Part shown: positions 3,289 to 7,626 of the stretch, piece after piece
Layout of the letters: the number at the start of each line of letters is the position of its first letter
How positions within the stretch are numbered: position 1 is the stretch's first letter
Assembly: GCA_947490035.1 (NCBI GenBank)
Contig: CANLGS010000053.1
Coordinates: 1-11,487, forward strand
Reading direction: 5' to 3'
Length of the DNA: 11,487 nucleotides
DNA from: Gemmataceae bacterium
GTDB lineage: Bacteria > Planctomycetota > Planctomycetia > Gemmatales > Gemmataceae
The notes under the pieces: model-generated
Database searches by the model: none
What the model saw: only the letters and a program-made list of their open reading frames with translations
What the model was told of the DNA's origin: nothing
Translations under genes and position numbers: made by a program

Positions 3289-3396
3289 CCGACCGTCGGC
3301 CGACTACCGCGCGACGTGTGTCGCCGTCTTCGCCTTCGCCATGTTTGAAGCCCTCAGAGAGCCGACCGTCGGCCGACTACCGCGCGACGTGTGTCG
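3289..3396. repeat. Two identical 35-bp direct repeats, 73 bp apart
   Basis: Positions 3289-3323 and 3362-3396 are identical over 35 bases, with a 38-base unrelated spacer. The unit opens with CCGACCGTCGG, an inverted repeat around one base, which overlaps the perfect palindrome GTCGGCCGAC. Read on the - strand, both copies carry the same in-frame THVAR-stop, so a duplicated 3' gene end is one possible origin. The second copy ends 39 bases past the stop of the 104-residue gene that runs towards it, so a terminator or 3' repeat is another. Confidence 0.8.
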
Positions 3397-5541: not shown

Positions 5542-5572
5542 TGGAACCTCGGAGAGAAGAGGAAGAGAAGAC

Positions 5573-5682
5573 GCCGCAGATGACGCAGACGGACGCAGAT
5601 CAAGACCGAAGAGGAAGAGTGTTCTGAAGAACTCAGTCCCCTGGCTTACATCTGCGTCCGTCTGCGTCATCTGCGGCTCTTC
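5573..5682. repeat. Palindromic repeat copy A
   Basis: A 28-bp arm at 5573-5600 is perfectly inverted at 5650-5677, with about 49 bases between. The interior resembles that of copies C and D (CAAGACCGAAGAGGAAGAG near the left arm, a TGGCTT near the right). The right arm also pairs with the next arm at 5696-5728 over 33 bp with a 13-base loop, so three consecutive arms can form alternative hairpins. It sits in the 5' leader region of the oxidoreductase gene. Confidence 0.9.
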
Positions 5683-5695
5683 GTTTTCGCCAACA

Positions 5696-6261
5696 GAAGA
5701 GCCGCAGATGACGCAGACGGACGCAGATTCAAGGCAGAAAGCGGTGTAAGAACGCAGTCAGGAGAATTCGATTGCGGGCCGCGACCGCTTCCGTTCGTTG
5801 TCGAACGCGAATCGCTTGAACTTGGGTTTCGGTCCGAAGTTGAGCAACAACCCGACCTCGACGGCCGACGCCTTGAGGTAGTTGAGCAACTGCGACTCGT
5901 TGGCCGCCGCGAAGTCGCTCGTCGCCTTCAGTTCGAGGATCACGACCCGTTCCACAAGGATATCGGCGCGGAAATCGCCGACGAGGTGGCCGCGGAAAAA
6001 GACCGGCAGGCTCGCCTGCGTCTCGACCGTCAGACCGGCGTCGGCGAGAGCAATCAACATGGCCTTGTGGTAAACGCTCTCGATGAAGCCGTAGCCGAGT
6101 TCGTTGTACACGGCGAAGAAGACGCCGATGACTTTTTCGGTGATCTCCCCGTGCTTGAACTCATCGCGTTTGGCAGACTCCGCCGCGTTTATTGTCTTTC
6201 TCTCAAAATGAATTCTCTTCCGTCTTTGATCTGCGTCTGTCGGCGTCATCTGCGGCTCTTC
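5696..6261. mobile_element. Candidate mobile cassette: GxxExxY gene between 33-bp inverted repeats
   Basis: Positions 5696-5728 and 6229-6261 are inverted copies with 31 of 33 bases identical, and they bracket a single gene (5758-6249). The arms are the same sequence that forms the gene-less palindromes A, C and D nearby. Weak resemblance continues inward from both arms: a CAAG..GAA tract after the left arm, and CTTTGATCTGCG at the right arm as in copy D. This suggests that the short palindromes are internal-deletion derivatives of such a cassette. No target-site duplication is obvious, since other arms abut both ends. That it moves is inference. Confidence 0.45.
5758..6249 (-). CDS. GxxExxY protein, PD-(D/E)XK nuclease-like
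   Basis: A 163-residue protein. The name-giving motif is present in LGYGFIESVY (G54, E57, Y60). A PD-(D/E)XK-type core follows: RADILVERVVILELKA, with candidate metal-binding residues D96, E106 and K108, then the helix ESQLLNYLKA and the closing strand VGLLLNFGPKPKFKR. This matches the GxxExxY family (PDDEXK_3), usually about 125-135 residues; the conserved part here starts near residue 32 (KHGEITEKVIGVFF). Only one in-frame ATG exists in a sensible range, at 6249, and it lies inside the right-hand arm of the flanking inverted repeat, so residues 1-8 (MTPTDADQ) are repeat-encoded. A non-ATG start further in (for example ATT) cannot be excluded. No clear ribosome binding site is seen. The family's cellular role is not established to my knowledge. 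Confidence 0.8.
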   Translation of the reverse strand: MTPTDADQRRKRIHFERKTINAAESAKRDEFKHGEITEKVIGVFFAVYNELGYGFIESVYHKAMLIALADAGLTVETQASLPVFFRGHLVGDFRADILVERVVILELKATSDFAAANESQLLNYLKASAVEVGLLLNFGPKPKFKRFAFDNERKRSRPAIEFS

Positions 6262-6274
6262 TGTCTTCGCCAAG

Positions 6275-6372
6275 AGAAGAGCCGCAGATGACGCCGACGA
6301 ATGCCAAGAGAGAGTTTTCAGAACACTCTTCCTCTTCGGTCTTGATCTGCGTCCGTCTGCGTCATCTGCGGC
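6275..6372. repeat. Palindromic repeat copy B (diverged)
   Basis: An arm at 6345-6372 matches the family perfectly in - orientation, and its partner at 6275-6298 is partial and diverged. The interior contains the reverse complement of copy A's interior (up to GTTCTGAA), so copy B is inverted relative to A. The left partner forms a 24-bp perfect inverted repeat with the cassette's right end (6239-6262), sharing a GCCGAC variant not found in the other copies. It fills the gap between the beta-lactamase-like and GxxExxY genes. Confidence 0.85.
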
Positions 6373-6400
6373 TGCATTTTCTTCTGCCTTTGAGCTGCGG

Positions 6401-7500: not shown

Positions 7501-7626
7501 CAGAAGAGCCGCGGATGACGCAGACGGACGCAGATCAAGACCAAGAGGAAGAGTGTGTTGAAGAACTCTGCCTCTTGGCTTTGATCTGCGTCCGTCTGCG
7601 TCATCCGCGGCTCTTCTCTTCCTCTT
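7501..7626. repeat. Palindromic repeat copy D, near-perfect long hairpin
   Basis: Arms 7502-7538 and 7581-7617 are perfectly complementary over 37 bp. After two mismatches, pairing continues for 8 more (CCAAGAGG with CCTCTTGG), and a further AGAGT/ACTCT pair lies inside. The whole element can form a stem of roughly 50 bp. It ends 12 bases past the amidotransferase stop codon, so it may serve as its terminator. The stretch 7286-7638 (353 bases without a gene) contains only copies C and D and about 47 unassigned bases between them. Confidence 0.92.

Follow-up and report, generated by a model that had tools for sequence, protein, structure and literature searches.

A GxxExxY gene between inverted arms

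The 11,487-nucleotide window analyzed here is one whole contig (C53) of the draft genome of the host (G000), which comprises 4.67 Mb and is 68% complete. Ten arms of 28 bp are located between positions 5573 and 7611 in strictly alternating (+/−) orientation and form five inverted pairs, which enclose, in order, 49, 500, 36, 49, and 48 bp (Table 1). Five arms match the 28-bp reference without mismatch, three carry one mismatch, one carries two, and the most diverged, at 6281-6308, carries six, which leaves the third pair half degenerate. The only gene within the 500-bp interior encodes a GxxExxY protein, and the element is neighbored by a Gfo/Idh gene (PF01408) and a beta-lactamase-family gene (PF13354). 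The mismatch counts per arm, the 500-bp interior, and the profile scores given below confirm the initial annotation, which had described ten alternating arms in five inverted pairs, one of them around a single GxxExxY gene whose PD-(D/E)XK core is intact.

Table 1. Features of the GxxExxY element and the associated palindromes in the window
Feature	Position	Strand	Remarks
GxxExxY gene	5758..6249	-	163 aa from ATG inside arm; profile matches, open frame from arm ATG
Left arm of gene-bearing element, 3′ side of gene	5701..5728	+	0 mismatches
Right arm of gene-bearing element, overlapping gene start	6229..6256	-	2 mismatches; pair I9, 87% over 47 nt
Gene-less palindrome P1, left of gene	5573..5677	.	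28-bp arms 100% complementary, 49 bp enclosed, z −11.5
Gene-less palindrome P2, right of gene	6281..6372	.	One degenerate arm; fold of 6273-6372 z −5.1
Gene-less palindrome P3	7334..7438	.	Fold z −12.5
Gene-less palindrome P4	7508..7611	.	Folded over 7502-7617, z −18.3
Whole compound quasi-palindrome, Gfo/Idh to beta-lactamase-family gene	5562..6384	.	Inverted blocks; orthologous sites

Each of the four gene-less pairs folds into a long hairpin (z, −5.1 to −18.3). P1 and P2 are 100% complementary over their outer 56 bp (pair I3), and the block on one side of the gene (5562-5739) is an inverted copy of the block on the other side (6218-6384), with 82% identity over 181 columns. The unit is therefore one large quasi-palindrome, which goes beyond a gene between two arms. 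The search of the host genome that the initial annotation had suggested returned 202 copies (95 + 107) of the 26-bp arm core at ≤3 mismatches, at least 45 of them exact among the matches listed, whereas the reversed core pattern, which served as a control, gave 0 + 0 copies. Because of this difference, and because the hairpin at 7502-7617 reaches a z of −18.3, chance is ruled out as the source of the window arms.

No rRNA was found in the window, whose single Rfam match is a tRNA. A separate palindromic cluster at 1628-1859, with one GTGGCACAG and five CTGTGCCAC motifs, lies within a 26-bp tandem array (D2), and 35-bp exact direct copies (3289-3323 and 3362-3396) are located 3′ of a tRNA-Gln gene.

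The GxxExxY protein

The window protein scores 124.9 bits against TIGR04256 (cutoff, 35), which makes it a member of the GxxExxY family, and 131.4 bits against PF13366 (cutoff, 22). At E ≤ 0.001, no family other than GxxExxY/PDDEXK_3 was matched, and no transposase was among the matches. The closest PDB chains to a structure model of the protein (pLDDT 89) were PD-(D/E)XK nucleases, including Hjc, and weaker rows of the fold search included tRNA splicing endonucleases. Searches for solved relatives returned none at E ≤ 10 with the protein sequence as the query and one weak match (E = 0.14) with a profile. Across 59 sequences, E60, D99, and E109 (numbering of window:5758-6258:-) are invariant, and K111 is present in at least 90%. 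By its modeled fold and its catalytic D...ExK residues, the protein is assigned to the PD-(D/E)XK superfamily, with predicted nuclease activity.

The single ATG upstream of the conserved core in the translated stretch of the window gene falls within the gene's own arm. At 19 of the 45 GxxExxY loci examined, and also at L133 (2009-2401), the longest open frame extends into the 5′ arm; the arm repeats may therefore be translated into protein, although the longest frames may overstate this.

GxxExxY proteins above the family cutoff were found in 111 of the 246 Planctomycetota genomes searched. The host genome has two other GxxExxY genes: one (L003) is truncated at the end of its contig, and the other (L001) has 46-bp perfect inverted arms of its own and lacks the window arm at ≤8 mismatches. 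Literature carrying the GxxExxY name yielded no role for these proteins; a passing mention occurs in excerpts of PMC8934634, and the name also appears in PMC12085832. Titles and abstract openings of the mainly open-access literature on REPs, MITEs, heptamers, and IVSs did not link GxxExxY to palindromes, and six arm sequences entered as literature text gave no match.

Inverted arms are general at GxxExxY genes

The recurrence of the layout was examined by aligning the 300-bp upstream flank of each full-flank locus with the reverse complement of its downstream flank, and the same alignment on windows displaced by 700 or 900 bp provided the controls. The score threshold of 18.5 was chosen after the control scores, the largest of which was 18.0, had been seen. 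The tested loci were the better-scoring ones and not a random sample: 30 of 37 rows in the host genus, the best 30 of several hundred matches (387 by tally) elsewhere in the phylum, and 26 of 26 rows in other groups, whose genomes were located by way of named records and which comprised Acidobacteriota, SAR324, Aminicenantes, Cloacimonadota, Prevotellaceae, Phocaeicola, and one unclassified bacterium. Cut flanks removed four, five, and five loci, respectively, including all those of Cloacimonadota, and L247 and L248, which are pieces of a single broken gene, were also excluded.

The threshold was reached at 25/26 loci in the host genus (the sole miss being L054), 20/25 elsewhere in the phylum, and 11/19 in other groups. 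In total, inverted arms were detected at 56/70 full-flank GxxExxY loci, compared to 0/280 shifted control windows (104 + 100 + 76). Several loci below the threshold have arms by eye, which is how all "three boxes" and "visible" arms below 18.5 were judged: in the phylum, L110, L112, and L128 (scores of 14 to 16) have boxes and L115 and L123 show nothing, and in the other groups, L226, L231, L235, and L236 have arms and four loci show nothing. The Cloacimonadota locus L095 has nested boxes and a score of 17.5. Among eight named loci that overlap the other-group set, four reach 18.5 and L097 shows nothing. The initial annotation had read the arm pairs as an autonomous element with non-autonomous derivatives, a reading that it would have given up had GxxExxY genes of related genomes lacked an association with arms; these counts support it and extend the gene-arm link beyond the host.

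The initial annotation had also proposed comparing GxxExxY genes with other genes. When 306 non-overlapping open reading frames (ORFs; 100 to 450 aa) from 400 kb of the genome G030 were scored in the same manner, six reached 18.5, four of them PF13366 and two PF05635 (23S_rRNA_IVP) genes, which favors the proposed association; G030 has 11 GxxExxY matches, and the 400-kb stretches were mostly picked around those, which enriches the sample for GxxExxY. Three further genes, two GxxExxY and one IVP, scored 15.5 to 16.5. A scan of the 400 kb for inverted pairs, blind to the proteins, found tandem-box arms at GxxExxY genes (one of them, L130, broken) and at 23S-IVP genes, as well as some inverted pairs of different types, including L129 13394-14608, L134 14133-14567, L138, L144 14361, and L147. 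In chunks of host-genus genomes, 3/776 ORFs reached 18.5, which by eye were neither GxxExxY nor 23S-IVP genes, and 17/5729 N-free random intervals did so.

Phage records gave no GxxExxY match. Eight plasmid records contain GxxExxY, and the three loci read scored 22.5, 12.0, and 11.0; the first, from Bacteroides finegoldii, has clear triple arms, and the two others are without them. In the B. finegoldii plasmid (NZ_OY725952.1, 24.8 kb), the gene at 1483-1857 (L249) has CCACAGAG-type triple arms, and its two neighbors are radA and a gene encoding an FAD-dependent protein. Given its recurrence in distant bacteria, the GxxExxY gene is probably part of a little-known kind of mobile DNA, which it may also drive.

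A similar layout at 23S-IVP genes and other palindromes at REP transposase genes

Among the PF05635 loci of the host genus (L061-L090), 17 of 26 with full flanks reach 18.5. Their arms consist mostly of 7-bp repeats (best self-match lag of 7 in 12/17), whereas GxxExxY arms have a best lag of 8 to 10 in 45/57. Two unrelated small proteins, the 23S-IVP protein not being of the PD-(D/E)XK type, thus have similar layouts but differ in the spacing of their boxes. According to excerpts of PMC4990558, a terminal stem of 28 bp closes the Coxiella 23S rRNA intervening sequence (IVS), and some strains have three tandem heptamers ahead of the S23 gene. This architecture fits the 23S-IVP arm class, and the IVP loci of the genus are possible relatives of 23S rRNA IVSs outside rRNA genes.

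Genes for REP-type transposases (Y1_Tnp) served as a positive control. Thirty loci of the genus were fetched and 26 tested, four weak ones being left out; five were dropped for cut flanks. With 400-bp flanks, 14/21 had inverted repeats, all of other REP-like types by eye, and the triple-box pattern occurred within 1.5 kb of Y1_Tnp at 1/21 loci. That pattern finds only 14/29 GxxExxY loci and is therefore strict, discriminating weakly by itself. One genome with arms, G002, has no Y1_Tnp match at E ≤ 0.001. An explanation by ordinary REPs and RAYTs was rejected, since different palindromes accompany the Y1_Tnp genes of the genus.

Arm sequence tracks the protein

The arms vary between copies, and most repeat a short box, such as CGCAGAT, CACAGAG, or CACAAAG, with three boxes per arm in most copies (by eye). 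Over 1866 cross-genome pairs, drawn from 62 of 66 loci after four with scores of <14 were left out, arm similarity correlated with protein identity (Spearman 0.52; permutations matching, 0/1000), also among pairs with <60% identity (0.44; 0/1000). Linked descent alone can produce such co-variation in cis and may explain part of it.

The 202 copies of the window arm core in G000 compare to at most 22 in any of 18 congeners and to none in G001, G002, and G004. The GxxExxY proteins of these three genomes are 77% identical to the window protein but have a different arm, which is present in 20, 28, and 13 copies in the respective genomes and in 0 copies in G000; in G001 and G002, the gene has the same two neighbors as in the window. 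A third type of arm, GGCCACAAAAAAGCACAAAAAGCACAAAAG (CCACAAA type), is most frequent in G012 (105 copies) and G003 (85 copies), whose GxxExxY genes bear close variants of it, and genomes with related arms have 28 (G009), 14 (G010), and 1 (G015) copies. The gene-less hairpins of a genome thus tend to match the arms of the resident gene in the three arm types tested, with clear exceptions. CCACAAA-type arms number 32 in G004, 25 in G002, 19 in G001, and 16 in G000, with no such gene among the loci read, whereas G015 has a CCACAAA-type gene and one arm copy. Forty-two G001-type arms occur in G010 (a draft, 82% complete), in which the matching gene was not found, and 22 arms near the window type occur in G013, which has no GxxExxY match. 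A spread of arms independent of the gene, which the initial annotation had named as evidence against its reading, was therefore seen in part, in that G010, G013, and G004 have many arms for which a matching gene was not detected.

Across the 246 Planctomycetota genomes, a generic arm is present in 67/112 gene-bearing genomes versus 12/134 gene-less ones, and at least five generic arms remain, after two per gene are subtracted, in 23/112 versus 7/134; phylogeny is ignored in both comparisons.

Orthologous sites are filled, empty, or replaced

The gap between the Gfo/Idh and beta-lactamase-family genes was read in relatives of the host; the second gene is present in 14/19 genomes, and the stretch read does not include the Gfo/Idh gene in G007 and G018. 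The comparison of empty and filled sites that the initial annotation had suggested turned up both. The GxxExxY element occupies the gap in G000, G001, and G002, and G004 has the gene plus about 1.1 kb extra. In three genomes the gap is empty, with 83 bp in G014, 87 bp in G016, and 161 bp in G017 (score, 7). Other genomes have it differently filled: G010 and G012 have a gene-less CCACAAA-type palindrome (scores of 49 and 64), nested palindromes occupy it in G013 (109.5), a REP-like stretch is present in G005 (15.0), and G003 has another gene (by eye). As the element is present, absent, or replaced at a conserved gap, the site evidently takes several elements.

At three further gaps with flanks that are 87.5 to 96.7% identical between G001 and G002, a triple-box hairpin in one genome faces a heptamer-type palindrome in the other (by eye), and at a fourth, nested triple-box hairpins (G002) face another palindrome (G001). 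These four orthologous gaps show a swap for another palindrome and not a clean insertion. No target-site duplication was found for the GxxExxY arm family in about 160 kb of chained G001-G002 alignment and the orthologous sites read. The one clean empty site with a 6-bp repeat belongs to a GTGGCACAG family. A GTGGCACAGGCC family, similar in look to the cluster at 1628-1859 of the window, differs between G001 and G002 and in one case has a flanking 6-bp TAAACG repeat and an empty site in G002.

In G002 (region A, 46565-46771) and at L157 (1470-1850), palindromes lie inside the loops of others. Hairpin loops look as if they were preferred insertion sites.

In 20 gene-less elements of G000, the sequences just outside the left and right arms match over 12.3 nt on average within elements and only 6.2 nt between elements, and the former value was reached by 0/10000 shuffled pairings. 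Together with the 181-column inverted blocks of the window, these matches suggest that one arm of a hairpin serves as the template from which the other is extended or corrected.

Comparison with known palindromic elements

RAYT transposases mobilize REP hairpins. In REPtrons, according to excerpts of PMC3733652 and PMC8266576, palindromic repeats stand on both sides of the gene and are also found by themselves at many intergenic positions, and where a species has several repeat families, its REPtrons are specific to the repeat. The window element likewise has inverted palindromes around its gene that are also scattered through the genome. However, RAYT is an HUH Y1 protein (TnpA-REP) and the window protein is of the PD-(D/E)XK type, and REPs are 20 to 40 bp long and tagged with GTAG, whereas GxxExxY arms are about 28 bp long with repeated boxes. 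The GTAG tag is absent from the window arm and from 61/62 arm stretches. A CGTC end tag was not found within 8 nt of the outer end; CGTC is internal in 16/62 arm stretches and occurs three times on one strand of the window arm. Since it has neither the HUH transposase nor the GTAG tag, the window element is not a REPtron by membership, but it is REPtron-like in its mode of working.

TIRtrons, as described in excerpts of PMC3733652, similarly have a gene between long inverted repeats that form a repeat family, but the enzyme there is a tyrosine transposase. MITEs and insertion sequences resemble the GxxExxY family in that gene-less short inverted-repeat elements exist beside a gene-bearing form, of which the element in Table 1 is the only one seen with the window arms. 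The GxxExxY element differs from them in being near-palindromic overall, with no transposase family matched and no target-site duplication found. The 23S IVS, in excerpts of PMC4990558, shares a long terminal stem around a small gene, with tandem heptamers beside that gene; its cargo, however, is the four-helix S23/IVP protein and its location is in rRNA genes, whereas the window has GxxExxY between protein genes.

Interpretation

The best reading of these data, to which we assign a probability of roughly 0.6, is a REPtron-like family of mobile palindromes whose own protein is a PD-(D/E)XK nuclease. It builds on the cis linkage of gene and arms, the co-variation of arm and protein, the match between hairpins and arms (with its exceptions), the presence and absence of the element at orthologous sites, and the PD-(D/E)XK fold. 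Under this reading, two inverted arms made mostly of short direct boxes 8 to 10 bp apart would enclose a gene whose protein recognizes the boxes, and the gene-less arms, near-perfect intergenic hairpins of about 100 to 120 bp, would be non-autonomous and served in trans. The GxxExxY protein would bind the arms as DNA and nick or cut the hairpin or cruciform, after which repair or strand transfer may copy the element or convert it to another copy. The sequence comparisons indirectly support recognition of the arms, and we think it somewhat better than an even chance that the protein reads its own arms and helps to spread or maintain them.

Alternatively, the palindromes could spread by host processing, template switching, or an enzyme acting in trans, with the GxxExxY and 23S-IVP genes riding in their loops. 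The common layout at two unrelated proteins speaks for this alternative, and the similar layout at a protein that is not of the PD-(D/E)XK type (17/26) counts against the suggestion, made in the initial annotation, that the nuclease spreads the palindromes. Palindromes of several families also replace each other in the same intergenic gaps, the left and right extensions beyond the arms are alike in one element and unlike in different elements, a pattern that hairpin-templated copying would produce, and G010 and G013 have arms with no matching gene detected. Against it, just the GxxExxY and 23S-IVP families pass the ORF control in G030 (6/306), the box spacing follows the protein (45/57 versus 12/17 at the respective lags), and the arm sequence tracks the protein; in addition, Y1_Tnp genes carry other palindromes, and G002 has arms without a Y1_Tnp match at E ≤ 0.001. 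We regard passengers in loops as an unlikely account.

The arms could instead act as transcribed hairpins, as in the 23S IVSs excised by RNase III, with a protein that binds or processes RNA and with DNA mobility being secondary. S23 genes are known IVS cargo, the Coxiella IVS has its stem and heptamers (PMC4990558, in excerpts), and the hairpins are very stable, but the copies read sit between protein genes and DNA nucleases head the GxxExxY fold search, although its weaker rows include tRNA splicing endonucleases; such a role at the RNA level appears improbable. Finally, REP-like palindromes are frequent in these genomes, but the coincidental landing of an ordinary one on both sides of a resident gene is extremely improbable, given that the layout recurs with different arms at 56/70 GxxExxY loci versus 0/280 controls.

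Extending the preferred reading, a nuclease-driven palindrome family, we tentatively propose, at somewhat less than even odds, that GxxExxY proteins of the PD-(D/E)XK type, by reading arms of repeated boxes and cutting the hairpins, drive a palindromic class in several phyla, with up to about a hundred non-autonomous intergenic hairpins as offspring per genome, and that a sister class with four-helix S23/IVP proteins and arms of mostly 7-bp repeats includes the classic 23S IVSs as members that landed in rRNA genes. If GxxExxY proteins recognize and mobilize palindromes, a common family of unknown function would gain a function and the intergenic hairpins an origin, and the RAYT/REP arrangement would have arisen also with an unrelated enzyme. 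Should the S23/IVP link hold as well, the intervening sequences of 23S rRNA would gain relatives outside rRNA.
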